Below, piece after piece: positions 25,045 through 32,635 of a DNA stretch of 34,379 bases. Source of the stretch: an uncultured Planctomycetaceae bacterium. GTDB taxonomy: Bacteria; Planctomycetota; Planctomycetia; Planctomycetales; Planctomycetaceae. A program made the translations under genes and the position numbers. The notes beneath the pieces were generated by a model that saw nothing but the letters and a program-made list of their open reading frames with translations, had not been told where the DNA came from and made no database searches. The stretch spans positions 1-34,379 of the forward strand of contig CAJWGB010000034.1 of assembly GCA_913031625.1 (NCBI GenBank). Reading direction: 5' to 3'. Numbering within the stretch: the stretch's first letter is position 1; every line of letters begins with the position of its first letter.

Positions 25045-27126
25045 ATGCGACTGACATTACGTACACTGCTTGCCTATCTGGATGACCGGCTCTCTCCATC
25101 GAATGCGCGAGAACTCGGGCAGAAGCTGAAACAGAGTCCGTTTGCTCAGGAATTGGCAGAACGCATTAAGGGAGTGGTTCGGCGACGTCGGCTGGCCCGT
25201 GAGGAGAATGCCAGGACTATCGATGCAAATCTGCTTGCTGAATACCTCGACGATCAACTGACACCTGAGTTGATCACGCTGATCGAGAAGGAGGTCCTGG
25301 CTTCAGACCAAAGTCTGGCGGAAGTCGCGGCCACTCATCAGATCCTGGGGCTGCTTGCTGACCCTGTCGAGCTTTCGCCGGTGCTGCGGGATCGGCTTTA
25401 TCAGCTTGATCCTGCTACCGACGGAAGCGTGGACGCAGCGGCATCTGCGGAGCAGCGGCCAGCGGACTGGCAGCCATTGCCAAAGCAGGCAGAGCAGCAA
25501 CGTCGGTCACCGATGATCCTGCTCGCGGCGATGGTGCTCGGGTGGCTGATTCTGCTGACAACAGATGGCAATCTCTTGGGTACCGGGACCCAGGACGATG
25601 AGTTGGTCGCACAGGCAGACCCGGATGGCAATGAAGAGCTCAGGGCTCACGATGATGGTGAGCAGAACAGCAACGGCGAGCACGCCACCCAGGTGGCGCA
25701 GGCAGCCAACACGCAACAACAGACGGACGGCACGGGGGAGAATCCGGCTGAAGAAATCGGCCAGGCAGGCACGACCGCTCAACATACGGGCGATGACAAC
25801 GAGACGGATTCAGGTGATGCCAAAGTCCCCAATCCCGTGAATCCGGATGCCGGGGAGAATACTGCAGGCACCGACACTCAAAGGGACAACGAAAAAGAAG
25901 GTGACGTTCCCAGGCCTGTTGTGGCCGAGTTGCCGCATATCGAGCTGATTGATACTGATAACGTTGTTTCACTGCTGGAACTGGAGACCGCGAAGTGGGC
26001 TCGGTCGGCCGCTGCCGGCATCCAGCCGGCCACAAGCTGGACCAAATACCTGAACGGGAAACTTATTGCAGTGCCGGAGCCGTTTACGGCTCGTTTACTA
26101 GCTCCGGATGCTGGTTGGGATCTGCAGCTCGTGGGGCCCTGTCTTGCTTTGGTTGATGCAGTTGAGGGGCGTGTGCGGATTGTAGATGGCCGGGGGCTGC
26201 TCCGGCGTTACGAAGGAGCTGAGGCAGCCGATTTTCACCTCGTAACGAATGGTGGAGAATTTATCATGAGTGCTCCTGAAGCTCCGGGGGTTGCAGCGAT
26301 CGGCTGTGGTCCGCGAATCAATGGTGCGACTCCGGAAGGTGATTCGGCCTATCCTCTTGCAAGTCATTCCCTTGTACAGATCTGCGCATATGAAGCAGAC
26401 ATTGCAATGACTCTTACTAATGCTGACGGCACTGTCCCTGAGCTCTCTGAACTGGTTGTTGGCAAAGATACCTGTCTCATGTGGGACAGCTCGGCCGGGC
26501 ACAAGCCAGAGGCCCGACAGGAAGGCGCTTTGCTTCCGGACTGGGTTGCTGCCGAGTCTGGAGAAACGGACCCGCTTGTCGCTCAGGTGAGAGAGGATGC
26601 TCTCACGATCTATTCTGGTGCAGAGTCTTCCGCTGACGCCGTCGTTGCGCTGCTGAAAGATAAGAATCCCCAGCTGTCGGGGTTTGGCGTGAGCCACCTC
26701 GTCCTGGACCGCGATATCGAGCGGCTCGCGACAACCCTGCTGGCTTCGGATCAGGAATCCACACGAGTTGGATGTGTGATGGGAATTCAAAAGCTCCTTG
26801 CCGAATCTGCAGTCTTTGAACAACGGCTGGTGGTCACTCTGGAGACACGCTTGCCGGAAATGGAGCTGGGAAATGCGATGAAGCTCATTCGAGGTGTCAC
26901 TCCCGTGGCAGCCGAGGATCCGGAAGTCAGTTCGTGGCTGCTCGAGTTGCTTCGCAATCAACGTGCGGCGATGCGAGAGTTAGCGATCCTGAATCTCGAG
27001 CGACTTACCGGAGAACGTTACGGGTTCTTCGCCGGTGATGATGCCACTCGTCGCGACGCTGCCCTGCGAAGATGGCGCAAGCACATGGAACGCAATGACG
27101 GCAGAATATTGAAAGCCGGACAGTAA
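25045..27126 (+). CDS. Membrane protein with duplicated anti-sigma-like N-terminus and large extracytoplasmic domain
   Basis: 693 residues; AGGA (25034-25037) lies 7 nt before the ATG. I cannot name a characterised family. The cytosolic N-terminus contains two similar helical units (LLAYLDDRLSP near 8-18 and LLAEYLDDQLTPE near 63-75), resembling anti-sigma-factor N-terminal helices but without zinc ligands. One membrane helix spans about 156-173 (MILLAAMVLGWLILL). Residues about 182-295 are an Asn/Asp/Thr/Gln-rich linker. The extracytoplasmic part holds a FecR-like beta-rich region (about 325-470, including VEGRVRIVDGRGLLRR) and a helical HEAT-like end (about 525-690). It could sense an envelope signal and hold a sigma factor, but no sigma gene lies in the window. 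Confidence 0.75.
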   Translation: MRLTLRTLLAYLDDRLSPSNARELGQKLKQSPFAQELAERIKGVVRRRRLAREENARTIDANLLAEYLDDQLTPELITLIEKEVLASDQSLAEVAATHQILGLLADPVELSPVLRDRLYQLDPATDGSVDAAASAEQRPADWQPLPKQAEQQRRSPMILLAAMVLGWLILLTTDGNLLGTGTQDDELVAQADPDGNEELRAHDDGEQNSNGEHATQVAQAANTQQQTDGTGENPAEEIGQAGTTAQHTGDDNETDSGDAKVPNPVNPDAGENTAGTDTQRDNEKEGDVPRPVVAELPHIELIDTDNVVSLLELETAKWARSAAAGIQPATSWTKYLNGKLIAVPEPFTARLLAPDAGWDLQLVGPCLALVDAVEGRVRIVDGRGLLRRYEGAEAADFHLVTNGGEFIMSAPEAPGVAAIGCGPRINGATPEGDSAYPLASHSLVQICAYEADIAMTLTNADGTVPELSELVVGKDTCLMWDSSAGHKPEARQEGALLPDWVAAESGETDPLVAQVREDALTIYSGAESSADAVVALLKDKNPQLSGFGVSHLVLDRDIERLATTLLASDQESTRVGCVMGIQKLLAESAVFEQRLVVTLETRLPEMELGNAMKLIRGVTPVAAEDPEVSSWLLELLRNQRAAMRELAILNLERLTGERYGFFAGDDATRRDAALRRWRKHMERNDGRILKAGQ

Positions 27127-27336
27127 TCTGACGCGTGTGTGTCGCAACCAGAGCAGGCTGTTAAACTCTGCGGGTTCTGACGATTTGTTAAGTCAGCAAG
27201 CGGCTTCCGCCAGGAAGCGGAGAGTTGGCCTGTCGTATCGATTCGTCCGATGGTGACAGTAGTCAGCGGATTCCCTGCGCCAGACCGTGCCGCGGAGTCC
27301 TCCGGCCTTTCAATGTTGTTCCGGAGCAAGGATGCC

Positions 27337-27885
27337 ATGCGACGAATTGTGTTGCCCCTGATTCTCACCGGGCTGGCTTCTGCCAACTTCGCTACAGCCG
27401 ATGAGAAGACCGTTTTGGATGACCTGCGTCAGCCGATCGGGTCGCTTTCCCTTAAGGAGGCGATTGTTATCCGATCCGGGGAAGGTGAACCGTTGCGTAA
27501 GCCGGAGAACCTTGCCGCCAGGAACGTAGTGGAGGATCCGGAAGGCGTTCGGATGGCACTTTCACGCGTCATCAAGGCGCCACATGGCGCGGCGCGTTAT
27601 CGTATCTGCCACAATCCACTGTATTTCGAAGATCCCAACATGGAACGCTGCGGAGAAGGTTTCGGAATCTGGACCGATGCCGTTTCTGCAACTCGACTCT
27701 TCGGACGCACGGCAATAGTTCCCTACCTGATGGCTGTTAATGCTCCGGACTCAAAAGTCCGTGCATTGCCACTGTGTCCGAGTTGTCAGGCGTTCGACTC
27801 AAGCGTTTATGTTCCCGTGCCGGACCTTCACGGCGTGACCGCGGAATCGATCGCAGTTGTCGGTCTGATCTTTCTGATTCCGTAA
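27337..27885 (+). CDS. Small secreted planctomycete protein with CHNPLYFEDPN motif
   Basis: 182 residues from the ATG at 27337, where the signal peptide begins (MRRIVLPLILTGLASANFATA); AAGGA is 4 nt upstream. Function unknown. The core motif CHNPLYFEDPNMERCG (about residues 89-104) is of a type I associate with a family of short exported planctomycete proteins. Two Cys flank it and a second pair occurs as LPLCPSC near 145-151, suggesting disulfides or metal binding. The end is hydrophobic (AVVGLIFLIP), perhaps a membrane-touching tail. It follows the anti-sigma-like gene by 210 nt in the same direction. Confidence 0.75.
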   Translation: MRRIVLPLILTGLASANFATADEKTVLDDLRQPIGSLSLKEAIVIRSGEGEPLRKPENLAARNVVEDPEGVRMALSRVIKAPHGAARYRICHNPLYFEDPNMERCGEGFGIWTDAVSATRLFGRTAIVPYLMAVNAPDSKVRALPLCPSCQAFDSSVYVPVPDLHGVTAESIAVVGLIFLIP

Positions 27886-28014: not shown

Positions 28015-29382
28015 TTAGGGCGTTTGGGAGTCCTGCTCCACTGATTCCCCTGGAATCTCCCGACCATGGGGGTCGACGTCAGGTGAGTTGGTGGCGTCAC
28101 TGAGTTGCTTACGCAGCTCTCGAGTCGTGAAGTGCTCAAACTTCTCTGCCTTATCATGGAGGGAGCCCGGCTGTACGGCTGTATGGGAGGCGAGATACTG
28201 CTCCCAAAGACGATGGGATCTCACGAGTTGCTGTGCCGAAGACGTTCCGGAATCTGTCAGCCGGAACTCCTGTCCGTCCGGAACGACCTGCTCACGACGA
28301 ATTAACAGGTACAGAACGCATTTGAGTGACAGTCGATCACTCAGCAGGATGGTCTGCAGGTTTTGAAACGTGGCAGACGTCTCGTGGTTGCGTTCCTGAA
28401 TCCGATAGAGGAGTGCGACGATGTCATCTGCAAGAATGCTGAAGGCCAACATTCTTCGACGGATTAAGCGGATGAGAATTCCGTGAGATGGACTGAACAG
28501 GGCGGCAAGGAACAGGATCAGCCCCGCAACGACGGCCATCATACCGGTTGTTGTTGTGCTTCCGTAGCCGAACCATTTTGGAACTTCCAGAGCGGCCACA
28601 TGTCCGCCAAACGCGGATGCCGCGGCCAACACTGCACTGAGAAGGATCATGAGCCAGAGTCGATCCGTCAGCAACCATGCGGCTGCCGGAGGGACGACAA
28701 ACATTGCCACGACCAGGATGTTGCCCACAGTTTCAAAGCTGGCAACCGCGGTGACAGCGACCAGGACCATGAGTAGGTAGTGCATGAATGAGGCGTTGAA
28801 GCCCGTCGTGGTCGCCAGTGACGGGTCGAATGATGTGACCTTTAGTTCCTTGAAGAATAGTATCACAAACAGCAGATTGATGAGCAGGACGGTTCCCAGG
28901 GTGATGACTGGTGTCGGGATGGAAAAGCCTGCGACCGACGTCATCGTCATGTTTTCAAGCGCTCCGTAGAGCACGCAGTCAGGGTGTAGATCCACCTCGT
29001 CGGCGGCCTGCACAATCATGACCAGCCCCAAAGCAAACAGCGAAGTGAAGACCACGCCCATGGATGCTCCTTCTTCGACGCGGCCGAGGCTGCGGATCCA
29101 TTCTGTCAACAGGGCAGTGACGACTCCTGCGATGACGGCTCCGACAAGCATCGGCAGGCTGTCACGGCTGTTGCTTAAGAAGAACGCGGCCGCCAGGCCT
29201 GGCAGGACGGCGTGGCTGATGGCGTCTCCCAACATGCTGAGTCGCCGGAGGACAAGAAAGTTTCCCAGCAGCGACGCGGCCACGGCGCACAGAACACCAG
29301 CCAGCACAATCTGACCGTCCAGTCCCCAGTCCCAGTCAGCAGGCAGGAGGCGAAGTCCAGGCATGGCGAGCAATTGAATCAC
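28015..29382 (-). CDS. Metal ABC transporter permease fused to a DtxR/MntR-like C-terminal sensor (second permease, YtgD position)
   Basis: 455 residues; GTG start overlaps the previous stop as GTGA. Residues about 20-300 are an ABC-3 (ZnuB/TroC/MntB) permease with eight or more membrane helices and the hallmark LRRLSMLGDAISHAVLPG. After RLIRRR, residues about 312-385 resemble a winged helix (ILADDIVALLYRIQE; LTDSGT). Residues about 385-445 match the iron-dependent repressor metal-binding/dimerisation domain: His390, Glu394, His409, Glu413, Glu416, His417, which reproduces the spacing of DtxR His79/Glu83/His98/Cys102/Glu105/His106, with Glu replacing Cys as in MntR. DPHGREIP follows, as in DtxR relatives. 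Last gene of the operon. The tail could regulate transport or, if released, transcription. Confidence 0.92.
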   Translation of the reverse strand: MIQLLAMPGLRLLPADWDWGLDGQIVLAGVLCAVAASLLGNFLVLRRLSMLGDAISHAVLPGLAAAFFLSNSRDSLPMLVGAVIAGVVTALLTEWIRSLGRVEEGASMGVVFTSLFALGLVMIVQAADEVDLHPDCVLYGALENMTMTSVAGFSIPTPVITLGTVLLINLLFVILFFKELKVTSFDPSLATTTGFNASFMHYLLMVLVAVTAVASFETVGNILVVAMFVVPPAAAWLLTDRLWLMILLSAVLAAASAFGGHVAALEVPKWFGYGSTTTTGMMAVVAGLILFLAALFSPSHGILIRLIRRRMLAFSILADDIVALLYRIQERNHETSATFQNLQTILLSDRLSLKCVLYLLIRREQVVPDGQEFRLTDSGTSSAQQLVRSHRLWEQYLASHTAVQPGSLHDKAEKFEHFTTRELRKQLSDATNSPDVDPHGREIPGESVEQDSQTP

Positions 29383-30782
29383 TGTGGGGACCCTCCCTCG
29401 GGCAGGGCTCGGAAGACGCCTGAATCGGAGAGGTCATGCGGACTGGCCGGAAGGTCAGGCTGCTCATCCTGAAGAAGCTTCTCCAGTTCGCTGACGATTT
29501 CGGGCTCCAGGACATGCTCAATCGCGTCGGCATCTCGGTCCACGCGGCCAGGGGCGACGTCGGCGTAATTAATCAGGTAGAGCTCCCAGAGGCGGTGCTG
29601 TCGGGTCAGCCGTCTGGCTTCGATAATTCCGCGGCGCGTCAGGCGGATCTCGCTGCCGACCCATTCCACGAGCTCTTCTGACTGGGTCCGTCTCAGAATA
29701 CGATGCAGTTGCTGCATTGACCAGCTGCGCTGCGGAAGCAGATCTTTCAGGGTCACTGACCTGCGAACGCTGCCGAGCGCAGCTTCCTGAGTAAGCTCAA
29801 GGGATTCGTAAATGGCTCGCAGGAGGTGCTGTCGGTCGATTGAACGATTCAAACGCTGTCGTCTGCGAGCCCGCGACAGAATGCCTCGGCGAGTCCCGAA
29901 CACCATGCTGATCAGAAAGAGGTTCGTGCTTACCAGAACGATCATGGCTCCGGACGGGAGTTTGGGAAACAAGGCGCTGCAACCCGCACCAATGTAACCA
30001 CTTACTGCTCCAATGATTCCTGCGCCGATAAACATGGGACGGAGGTCAGATGTCCAGAACCGTGCGGCTGCTGCAGGGATCACGAGCAACGCTATTACCA
30101 GAATCAGTCCGACTGCCTGAAGACCAACGATGGTGACGATTACCACGAGCCCCATCAGCAGAATGTCAATCCAGAGCACACGGTACCCTCGGGAACCGGC
30201 ATAGACGTCATCAAAACAGAGCAGCTTCAACTCTTTGAAGCAGAGAATACAGCCGCCGACGCAGATTGCTCCTGCGACAAAAATCAACTGCAGGTCCGTC
30301 GAACTCATGGTGGCCGTCTTGCCGAGAATAAACGACTCGAGTCCGGCCGCATGGCCCTGATTCATCTTCTGAATCACACCAAGGAGTGCCACTCCTGCTC
30401 CAAAAAAAACACTGAGGACTGCCCCGAGGGCCGTGTCTTCTTTCAGCCGCGTCTGACTTCGAATTGCCAAAATCACCACAACGCCGAGGAGTCCGCTGAG
30501 GGTTGCGCCGAAGAGCAGCACACCCAACGACTTCCCGTCCAGCCCAAAGGTCGGAGCGAGAATAAACGCGAGTGCAATACCGGGCAGGGTGGCGTGGCTG
30601 AGAGCATCTCCCATCAGGGACCGTTTGCGAAGCAGCGTGAAGCTTCCCACCATCCCGGCAGCAGCTCCGAGCAACGTGGTACCAATGATTACAATGCGGG
30701 TGTTGTAATCCGTCAGCAGAAGCACTCGCTGGAGCTCCTCCCAATTGGGAAACGCTGCAAGAGAAAGCAGGGAGTGTGTCAC
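29379..30782 (-). CDS. Metal ABC transporter permease fused to a DtxR/MntR-like C-terminal repressor domain (YtgC-YtgR-like)
   Basis: 467 residues; GTG start overlaps the ATPase stop as GTGA. Residues about 25-300 are the ABC-3 permease ([21 protein letters not shown]). A basic junction ([11 protein letters not shown]) leads to a winged-helix-like segment, about 314-390 ([30 protein letters not shown]). The metal-binding/dimerisation segment follows with His396, Glu400, Asp415, Asp419, Glu422, His423, at DtxR spacing with Asp at two ligand positions. Chlamydial YtgC has the same layout and is known to be cleaved to release the iron-dependent repressor YtgR. The Arg-rich junction here could be a cleavage point, but that is inference. 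Third gene of the operon. Confidence 0.92.
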
Positions 30783-31555
30783 ATCGACCGCTCCCGCCGC
30801 CTCATGGCTTCCGAGACTTCATCCAGCAATGTGAGGCGTCCACCGTAGGTCTTCTGCAGGTTCTCTGTGGTAAACGCCTCTGCGACCGGGCCATGAGCAA
30901 CAATCCGCATGTTAAGAAGCACGACATAGTCGAAGTACTCCGGTACCGTCTGCAGGTCGTGGTGGATGACAGCCGCTGTGCGACCGGTGCGCTGCAGTTC
31001 TCTCAGGATCTCGACGATTGCCCGCTCCGTTGAGGCGTCAACGGCTGCGAATGGCTCGTCCATCAGGTATAGATCTGCGTCCTGTACGAGGGCCCGGGCC
31101 AGGAACGTCCGCTGCTGCTGACCGCCCGACAGCTGACTGATCTGGCGGCCCGCAAGGTCTGCGATTCCCACTCTGTCCAGAGCTTCCATTGCTCTGTCAC
31201 GGTGTCTTCTTCGGACCGGACGGAACCAGCCCAGTTCTCGGTACAGTCCCATAGTGACCACATCCAGCGCATCGACCGGAAAATCCCAATCCACACTCTC
31301 TCGCTGCGGAACATATCCAACACGATGCCGCGCCTGTTTCCATGGCAGACCGAAGACCTCAATTCTTCCGGACGCGCGTGGTATGAGGTCCATTACGGCC
31401 TTCAATAATGTACTCTTGCCGGCACCGTTCGGACCTACGATTCCAACAAGTGATCCCTGAGGGATATCGAACCCGATATCCCACACGACGGGCTTGCGAT
31501 GATAGGCGACGGTCAGATCACTGACAGACAGCGGAGAGGGAGCCGAATTGGTCAT
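30779..31555 (-). CDS. Metal ABC transporter ATP-binding protein
   Basis: 258 residues. Complete ABC ATPase of the Mn/Zn/Fe chelate importer class: Walker A GPNGAGKS (about residues 41-48), Q-loop in [16 protein letters not shown], a segment diagnostic of manganese/zinc/iron importers, signature LSGGQQQR, Walker B LYLMDEPF and the H-loop His in AVIHHDL. It energises import through the two permeases encoded downstream. Starts 2 nt after the binding-protein stop; its stop overlaps the permease GTG. Corresponds to YtgB/TroB/MntB-type subunits. Confidence 0.96.
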
Positions 31556-31557
31556 AA

Positions 31558-32550
31558 CTATTCGTCAGCGCCGAGTTTGCCGTTCAGTCCTGTCTCCGGA
31601 GCGTCTCCTCCCAGAGCACGCGTGACTGTCGTGATGTTGTGGTCCAGCATACCCACGTATGTGCCTTCGTAGGTGCCGTGAACTCCCATTGCATCGGAGA
31701 ACAGTTCGCCGCCCACTTTCACTTCGTGGCCTTTGGCACGAGCCCCTTCGATCAGCGCGTCGATGCTCTTTCGCGGGACGCTGCTCTCGATGAAGACGGC
31801 TTTGACTTTTCGCTCGACAAGGAGATCTACAAGTTCATTGACCTGTTTCAGGCCGGCCTCAGACTCTGTGGAAATCCCCTGGACGCCCCGTACGGTCAGG
31901 CCGTAGGCGCGGCCCAGATAGTTGAACGCGTCGTGCGACGTGATCAGCAGGCGGCTGTCTTCCGGAATACTGGCGATAGAGCTCAGTCCATATTCGTGGA
32001 GTGACTGCAGTTTCGCTCGGTACTTCTCAGCACTTTCAAACAAGTCTTGCTCATGCTGAGGCATGGTCTGGGCCAGAGTTTCCGTCACTACATTAACACA
32101 CTGTGCCCATGCCGAGACGTCCATCCAGACATGCGGGTCCTCATGGCCTTCGAAGTCTTCCGGTGTCAGTAACATGGACTTGTCGAGGTCCTTTGTAACC
32201 GCCACCACCGGTTTTGAGTGAGACATCTGCTCCAGGGAATCAGTCATCCGGCCCTCCAGAAGGAGACCGCTGTAGAGAACCACATCCGCGTCGCGTATGA
32301 GCTTTACGTCGTCGCGATTGGGCTTGTACAGATGAGGGTCGACACCGTCGCCCATGATCTGGCTGACCCGGACCCTGTCGCCACCGACCTCACGGACCAC
32401 GTCCGCCACCATGCCGACTGTTGCGACCACGTGAATGACCTGAGAATCGTCTGGACTCTCTGCTGCAGAATCTGACTCCGGATCAGCACATCCAGAAAGA
32501 ATCAGGCAGGCAAGCAGCAGCGTTGCTGAAAGCGGACGAGGTAAACGCAT
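31558..32550 (-). CDS. Metal-binding lipoprotein of the ABC importer (TroA/YtgA/MntA-like)
   Basis: 330 residues. Lipoprotein signal with lipobox LSGC (Cys21), so anchored in a membrane facing the periplasm. Cluster A-I (TroA-like) fold. The metal ligands by position are His73 (DPHLYKP), His140 (DPHVWMD), His206 ([14 protein letters not shown]) and Asp286 (ELFSDAMG), the His3Asp set of Treponema TroA. Manganese-specific PsaA/MntC have Glu at the third position. The long His-rich loop of ZnuA is absent; only HEDPH precedes the second ligand. Mn, Fe or Zn are all possible. First gene of a four-gene operon whose promoter carries two palindromes. Confidence 0.95.
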
Positions 32551-32584: not shown

Positions 32585-32600
32585 TTTAGCCGATGCTAAC
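32585..32600. promoter_or_regulatory. Operator palindrome 2 (second copy of the box)
   Basis: TTTAGC-CGAT-GCTAAC repeats the first box with one arm mismatch, centred 25 bp away, just downstream of the predicted transcription start. Two copies about two and a half helical turns apart suggest cooperative binding of two repressor dimers. Confidence 0.65.
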
Positions 32601-32607
32601 TTTCTCG

Positions 32608-32635
32608 ACTTTAGCCTGTGCTAAACATATGTCAA
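32608..32635 (-). promoter_or_regulatory. Sigma-70-type promoter of the metal-import operon
   Basis: On the minus strand a perfect -35 TTGACA (32635-32630), a 16-nt spacer and a -10 TAAAGT (32613-32608, four of six matches) precede the binding-protein gene. The predicted start is near 32601, giving a leader of about 50 nt. The spacer and -10 contain the palindrome at 32610-32625, so a bound repressor would block RNA polymerase. Confidence 0.7.
32610..32625. promoter_or_regulatory. Operator palindrome 1 (probable DtxR/MntR-like box)
   Basis: TTTAGC-CTGT-GCTAAA has perfect 6-bp arms. It lies inside the promoter spacer and -10 of the metal-import operon. Size and dyad resemble boxes for the DtxR/MntR family, the family whose domains are fused to the operon's permeases. 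The binding protein is inferred, not shown. Confidence 0.7.

Follow-up and report, generated by a model that had tools for sequence, protein, structure and literature searches.

DtxR/MntR-like tails on both permeases of a planctomycete metal ABC importer: candidate cytosolic sensors of a doubled permease fusion

Results

The window, a 34,379-nucleotide stretch of DNA from an uncultured Planctomycetaceae bacterium, carries a four-gene operon (SBP, ATPase, PermA, PermB) on its minus strand at 28015–32550 (ORF coordinates). The first gene (SBP, 31558–32550, minus strand) encodes a periplasmic or lipoprotein metal-binding protein of the ZnuA family (PF01297, E 9.2e-74) and is followed by the gene for an ABC ATPase (30779–31555, minus strand; PF00005, E 3.9e-30). 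The last two genes, PermA (29379–30782, minus strand; 467 aa) and PermB (28015–29382, minus strand; 455 aa), each encode an ABC-3 permease (PF00950, E 1.9e-61 and 8.6e-46, respectively) with a DtxR-like tail (PF02742, E 1.2e-12 and 3.2e-18). For both permeases the PF00950 and PF02742 matches exceed the curated gathering scores, and PF02742 lies C-terminal to PF00950; with the SBP and ATPase encoded in the same operon, the system has the makeup of an ABC-3 importer. The genes are tightly packed, with 2 bases between SBP and ATPase and 4-base overlaps at the ATPase/PermA and PermA/PermB junctions.

The identity of the transported metal is uncertain, because the top NCBIfam scores of the SBP (AztC and EfaA) and of the ATPase (a Mn/Fe ABC ATPase model) point to Mn/Fe and Zn models and all fall below cut-off. 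Judging from the link to MntR described below, the substrate may be of the Mn2+ type, possibly Mn, Zn, or Fe. The permease domain of the Mn ABC transporter structures 7kyp and 7kyo matches PermB (E 8.3e-32); unlike the tailed permeases of the window, the permease chains in these structures are 282 and 290 residues long and leave no room for such a tail.

We modeled the PermA tail (residues 305–467; 29382–29870, minus strand) and the PermB tail (residues 306–455; 28018–28467, minus strand) with AlphaFold (AF2), using 68 aligned tails for each. The models have mean pLDDT values of 79.0 (PermA) and 85.8 (PermB) and share a helices–wing–long-helix topology, with a complete winged helix and the dimerization fold predicted in each. 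In Foldseek searches of the PDB, the top matches of both tails were DtxR, MntR, DR2539, and IdeR structures (TM by target of 0.81 for the PermA tail against 1f5t and 0.81 for the PermB tail against 8pvt). Six candidate metal ligands lie at the exact DtxR spacing in each tail: H396, E400, D415, D419, E422, and H423 in PermA and H390, E394, H409, E413, E416, and H417 in PermB. At the position of DtxR Met10 and MntR Asp8, PermA has H319 and PermB has D320, both tentative as ligands; for tail positions we use what we take to be the DtxR/MntR residue numbering. The tails thus have the two-domain fold (as predicted) and ligand spacing of DtxR, MntR, IdeR, and DR2539, from which they differ in being fused to permeases, in having a recognition helix that departs from the family type, and in lacking the SH3-like third domain. 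Members of the MntR type also lack that third domain. The sequence-only reading had proposed that both permeases bear DtxR/MntR-like tails with these ligand residues, and had suggested structure prediction as a check. The PF02742 matches, the ligands, the predicted fold, and the Foldseek matches together confirm, at the level of sequence and model, that the doubled tails are real rather than a chance match.

A survey of planctomycete, chlamydial, and verrucomicrobial genomes, which the same reading had also suggested, revealed both single and double fusions. PF02742 matches occur in 83 of 149 Planctomycetota genomes, from which we classified 40 places in 38 genomes, picked for long frames among the matches listed. 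Doubled full tails were found at 19 of these 40 loci (window included). A full tail accompanies a winged-helix-only tail at three others and a tail-less permease at four. A single tailed permease could be read at 13 loci, which are either one-permease operons or have PermA and PermB apart from each other, and at one locus no permease was readable. At L041 and L043 the permease is unreadable. A tail-alignment scan of named genomes confirmed at least 578 relatives, of which we used the best 80, a non-random sample drawn, by record titles, from Verrucomicrobiota, Bacteroidota, Gammaproteobacteria, Acidobacteriota-type groups, and others. In 73 of these best 80 loci, a permease with a full tail is paired with a tail-less one; at three of them (L095, L118, and L137) the second permease runs off the stretch and could carry a tail there. 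Among the remainder, two loci have a winged-helix-only second tail, four have one readable tailed permease, and one has only a tail-less permease in full.

Of 63 Chlamydiota genomes, 61 have a PF02742 match. We read 30 chlamydial loci, and the first permease is tailed in all of them. At 29 the second permease has no tail, and at the remaining one (L179) it runs off the stretch. Adjacent pairs of long PF02742 frames occur in 4 of 59 Verrucomicrobiota genomes and were confirmed as doubled operons; a further verrucomicrobial genome outside these four (G262) has two long PF02742 frames on different contigs. No adjacent doubled pair was listed among 60 Acidobacteriota genomes. According to Thompson 2012, as relayed in PMC5599777, 11 phyla contain permease–repressor fusions. 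Across these counts, the single fusion is widespread and doubling is a recurrent minority form. The planctomycete loci rule out that doubling is unique to the window, and the four verrucomicrobial operons that it is limited to Planctomycetota. If the sequence-only reading took the doubling to be rare or unique, that part of it does not hold.

The closest studied relative is chlamydial YtgC(R), encoded by ytgABCD. This system resembles that of the window in its SBP–ATPase–permease–permease order, in the DtxR-like tail of an ABC-3 permease within a four-gene metal operon, and in the ligand positions, which bears out the analogy in gene order drawn at the outset; placement of both organisms in the PVC superphylum likewise fits. 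The difference is that in the YtgC type the tail is restricted to the first permease, whereas in the window both permeases are tailed.

We compared ligand positions across these relatives in DtxR numbering. H98, E105, and H106 are present in 79/79 full fused tails outside Planctomycetota (from the best 80 of at least 578 loci); H79 and E83 are as well, but the scan pattern required both. All five residues are present in 29/29 distinct chlamydial tails, a set found by the family model. The ligand positions are kept across Chlamydiota, Verrucomicrobiota, Bacteroidota, Gammaproteobacteria, and Planctomycetota, and are retained in single-tail loci as well. Ligands have been lost in the A tail of G217 and in both tails of L072 and L073, and the latter two loci, with their degenerate ligands, were excluded from the following A/B counts. 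In the lineage of the window, D98 and D102 occur in 14/14 PermA tails and His at position 10 in 11/14, while PermB tails have H98 in 15/15, E102 in 11/15, and D10 in 14/15. These counts uphold the earlier observation that the two tails differ at ligand positions. The four verrucomicrobial doubled operons, inspected by eye, show the same A and B patterns as the window. Five doubled loci from two other groups (L039, L040, L046, L052, and L057) have H98 in both tails, without the A/B difference. As far as sequence comparison goes, the ligand asymmetry is an old trait of one lineage and not of all doubled systems, since the window lineage keeps it and these five loci do not. We also considered the Trp of the motif HRLWExYL as a mark of fused tails and discarded it: the residue is found in 26/83 stand-alone proteins, and the scan pattern demanded it.

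A tree of permease domains (101 rows, quick method, midpoint root) has 53 rows on one side, all tailed and including PermA. The other side holds 48 PermB-type rows, among them the tail-less second permeases of other phyla; here, full tails occur in three separate groups (17, 3, and 2 rows), five rows are winged-helix-only, and 21 are tail-less. In a tree of 90 tail rows, 13 stand-alone proteins lie behind a starred branch and many inner branches are weak. Window-type PermB tails form a group of their own (with weak inner support), and we rejected the idea that they are recent copies of PermA tails. Because the trees are unrooted, they accommodate a gain of doubling as readily as a loss of the second tail.

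The recognition helix and the metal-binding part of the fused tails differ in conservation. Across 45 loci with both a fused and a stand-alone protein, mostly single fusions, mean identity in the recognition helix is 0.22 for fused versus 0.39 for stand-alone proteins (difference 0.171, bootstrap 0.137–0.210). The metal/dimer block of these loci, taken without the scanned motif, gives 0.50 and 0.48, respectively. An apparently higher conservation of the fused metal block (0.60 versus 0.51) came about because the tails had been selected by the scan motif, and it disappeared when the motif was excluded. Eight loci found without the motif pattern gave 0.21 versus 0.41 for the helix and 0.33 versus 0.37 for the metal block. 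The family-type recognition helix (SPxxVTxM-like in the stand-alone consensus) is absent from PermA and PermB tails alike; that of PermB reads LSLKCVLYLL, against the stand-alone consensus KPASVTDMLKKL. A conserved basic helix of a different type, with an RSW[ST] motif, is present in the PermA tails of doubled systems; its information is 2.28 versus 2.31 for stand-alone proteins, a value drawn from 14 rows, some of them nearly identical.

Several tails have a helix-turn-helix part that is 11–20 residues short while the metal domain is kept, namely, the PermB tails of L039 and L069–L071 and three of the 30 chlamydial tails read (L163, L164, and L172). The spacing between permease and tail is 0–6 aa in 57/58, 77/79, and 27/30 fused proteins; the chlamydial proteins outside this range are the three with shortened tails. 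Taken as a group, the fused tails are shown by these alignments to have lost the constraint on the recognition helix while the metal domain is kept. We do not take a degenerate helix as proof that the tails do not bind DNA. Chlamydial recognition helices are equally variable (identity 0.18), yet YtgR reportedly binds DNA, so a non-standard helix is compatible with DNA binding.

The genome of the window encodes one other PF02742 protein, a stand-alone MntR-like protein of 145 residues on contig C78, whose helix (VSHVTAHRTIARL) is of the family type. Chlamydiota differ in this respect: 55 of the 61 matching genomes have a single PF02742 place and no other PF02742 protein, whereas in the genome of the window the operon shares its promoter boxes with the gene for a stand-alone MntR. 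Two operator-like palindromes lie upstream of SBP. Palindrome 1 (TTTAGCACAGGCTAAA; 32610–32625, minus strand) is the sole exact TTTAGCN4GCTAAA in the 6.7-Mb genome, and palindrome 2 (GTTAGCATCGGCTAAA; 32585–32600, minus strand), 25 bp from it, has one mismatch. Palindrome 1 sits in and beside the spacer of a putative sigma-70-like promoter that we read by eye (TTGACA at 32635–32630, 16 nt, TAAAGT; 32608–32635, minus strand). The region upstream of mntR contains TTTAGCGTGTGCTACA and TTTAGCATGTGGTACA, 26 bp apart. Of the six sites within one mismatch in the whole genome (6.7 Mb), the operon accounts for two and mntR for one; three lie elsewhere.

Among family genomes, a box of the form TKTAGCN4GCTAMA (at most one mismatch) precedes SBP in 5/10 genomes with this MntR and in 0/14 without it (Fisher p 0.006), and it precedes mntR in 9/12 loci. 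Over all family promoters, 14/36 have a box, whereas random stretches taken from these loci gave a mean of 2.03 and at most 7; because the pattern was first taken from the window and then widened on its relatives, these family figures are somewhat optimistic. The SBP count covers 24 of 25 regions, leaving out L248, where the SBP start lies at the locus edge. The other five MntR-bearing genomes have no box at one mismatch or fewer. In a post hoc count over mixed phyla, TTTAGN6CTAAA occurs near the SBP start in 16/97 regions (random mean 2.88, largest 7/97). An MntR orthologue is divergent to SBP in G215 and at the far end of the operon in G217. Considering loci with an SBP, a stand-alone DtxR lies within the locus stretch in 18/34 Planctomycetota loci and 37/62 others.

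Discussion

Taken together, these observations suggest a division of labor in which MntR represses transcription and the paired tails sense cytosolic metal and hold the importer inactive by trans-inhibition, a reading to which we assign a probability of roughly 0.55. The importer would have a heterodimeric permease, with a cytosolic metal sensor of the DtxR fold joined to each half over a short and nearly fixed distance. A separate MntR would repress transcription of the operon from the tandem TTTAGC-N4-GCTAAA boxes. As cytosolic metal rises to fill the tail sites, the tails would change shape or pair, and the transporter would be held inactive. The unequal ligand sets (H10/D98/D102 in PermA and D10/H98/E102 in PermB, DtxR numbering) would make the sensor an asymmetric A:B pair. 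That the tails bind metal and pair as A:B, that MntR binds the boxes, and that transport is gated are steps that we infer; for the pairing, the predicted fold and the pairing of the genes are the grounds.

Several lines of evidence favor gating. The box before SBP tracks the presence of MntR and a stand-alone DtxR is found in many loci; if MntR does bind the operon promoter, the tails would be free for another job. Retained ligands, a DNA helix that has mostly not been retained, and a near-constant distance to the permease all fit a closely coupled cytosolic sensor. Helix-shortened tails still keep the metal domain. By analogy, trans-inhibition through fused sensor domains is described as established for MetNI and ModABC (PMC10710835). 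The principle proposed here would be the same, a fused cytosolic substrate sensor that dimerizes and blocks the cycle, but in those importers the sensor is of another fold and sits on the ATPase, whereas in the window it sits on the permeases.

Other findings weaken this reading. The 45-locus helix test rests mainly on single fusions, half of the MntR-bearing family genomes are without a box at one mismatch, and ligands have been lost in the A tail of G217 and in both tails of L072 and L073. Because single-tail systems exist, two tails would not be essential for whatever the tails do.

The main alternative is a YtgC-like one, in which one tail or both, either released by cleavage or still tethered to the membrane, would act as a metal-dependent repressor of the operon, the two tails forming a heterodimeric repressor. 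Its precedent also weighs against gating, since the one characterized homologue, YtgR, is reported to be a cleaved DNA-binding repressor (PMC5599777, PMC6504234, and PMC7755916). The complete winged helix predicted in both window tails and the conserved basic RSW[ST] helix of PermA-type tails point the same way, the latter again at the expense of gating. Nevertheless, we consider this alternative unlikely for this operon: the genome encodes a separate MntR, standard in its helix, whose promoter carries the boxes of the operon, and many fused tails have a recognition helix that is free of constraint or has lost part of its length. The fused proteins also offer no variable-length linker to cut, though the reported YtgR product, at 28–30 kDa, implies a cut inside the permease part. 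Thus, among the three options originally offered for the tails, cytosolic gating fits best and a tethered or cleaved repressor is less likely, while a heterodimeric sensor built from the two tails is plausible.

A further possibility, which we regard as improbable, is that the tails are assembly or stability modules that dimerize to hold together the PermA–PermB pair or the ATPases, with the metal in a structural role. Such a role would agree with a metal/dimer part that keeps its ligands while the helix varies, and one-permease operons would likewise yield two tails per transporter. On the other hand, ligands are kept in single-tail loci, where one tail per heterodimer is expected, and most second permeases in the best 80 of at least 578 loci are tail-less. 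That the tails merely buffer metal or are vestigial remnants of an old fusion would fit the partial helix loss in several tails, the ligand loss in G217 PermA and in L072/L073, and the winged-helix-only PermB tails of five loci, but retention of the ligands across the five groups listed above makes it very improbable.

Returning to gating by metal-sensing tails, a broader form can be advanced tentatively, and we are somewhat doubtful of it: the DtxR fold may have been repurposed so that an obligate, ligand-swapped PermA/PermB tail heterodimer gates the importer while MntR attends to transcription, and trans-inhibition might be general to permease–DtxR fusions, with YtgR as a special case. In the open-access literature, searched by titles and the beginnings of abstracts, neither doubled fusions nor gating by tails of this kind turned up as the subject of a paper. 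Single permease–repressor fusions are known; the doubled form adds, in the lineage of the window, different conserved ligand sets on the two tails.

Permease–DtxR fusions are common, and the only studied member that we found, YtgC, has been interpreted as a repressor released by cleavage. The doubled, ligand-swapped form, together with an MntR that shares its boxes, makes an alternative testable in which the transporter itself is under the control of the fused sensor. Should this hold, it would be a new mode of action for the metalloregulator fold and would make the permease a new site of trans-inhibition in ABC importers. It would also raise anew the question of how many of the fused "repressors" are DNA-binding proteins.

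Genomic arrangement of the tailed permeases

Two family members have a split operon in which both tails, each a winged helix followed by the PF02742 metal-binding/dimerisation domain, are kept. The tailed PermB lies 3.5 Mb from ATPase-PermA in genome G024 (loci L061/L062), and the corresponding parts occupy separate contigs in G087 (L064/L065). Two long PF02742 reading frames, each on its own contig, were also observed in genome G262 of the Verrucomicrobiota sample, and are possibly a further split doubled system.

Eight loci (L044, L045, L050, L051, L056, L058, L060, and L063) encode one tailed permease each, and a second permease was not found within the stretch at any of them. The importers of these loci are presumably homodimeric, with two identical tails. 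We also observed a verrucomicrobial-type operon, as judged by its tail sequence, at L143, in a metagenome-assembled genome labeled Klebsiella pneumoniae, which is probably a mislabeled bin.

The window genome contains a further pair of a substrate-binding protein and an ABC-3 permease (G000:C2:26771-30181; L187, L189, L258), the permeases of which carry no PF02742 tail. Beside the window operon are plus-strand open reading frames of 693 aa (25045-27126) and 211 aa (27250-27885), neither of which has a confident match in Pfam or NCBIfam.

Partial and degenerate tails

The second permease at five loci (L036-L038, L082, and L109) carries the winged helix only and lacks the metal domain, while the first permease is fully tailed. 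An RFGWS-like motif is found in four of these five second permeases. Among chlamydial YtgC-like tails, the helix-turn-helix part is 11-20 residues short in 3 of 30 (L163, L164, and L172), and in each of these genomes the shortened tail is the sole place where PF02742 occurs.

Loss of metal ligands was observed in the PermA tail of G217 (L267), which lacks H79 and the EH pair (E105 and H106, DtxR numbering), with the ligands being kept in G217 PermB. In L072/L073, both tails are degenerate. One partner of a proposed sensor pair may turn into a pseudo-sensor.
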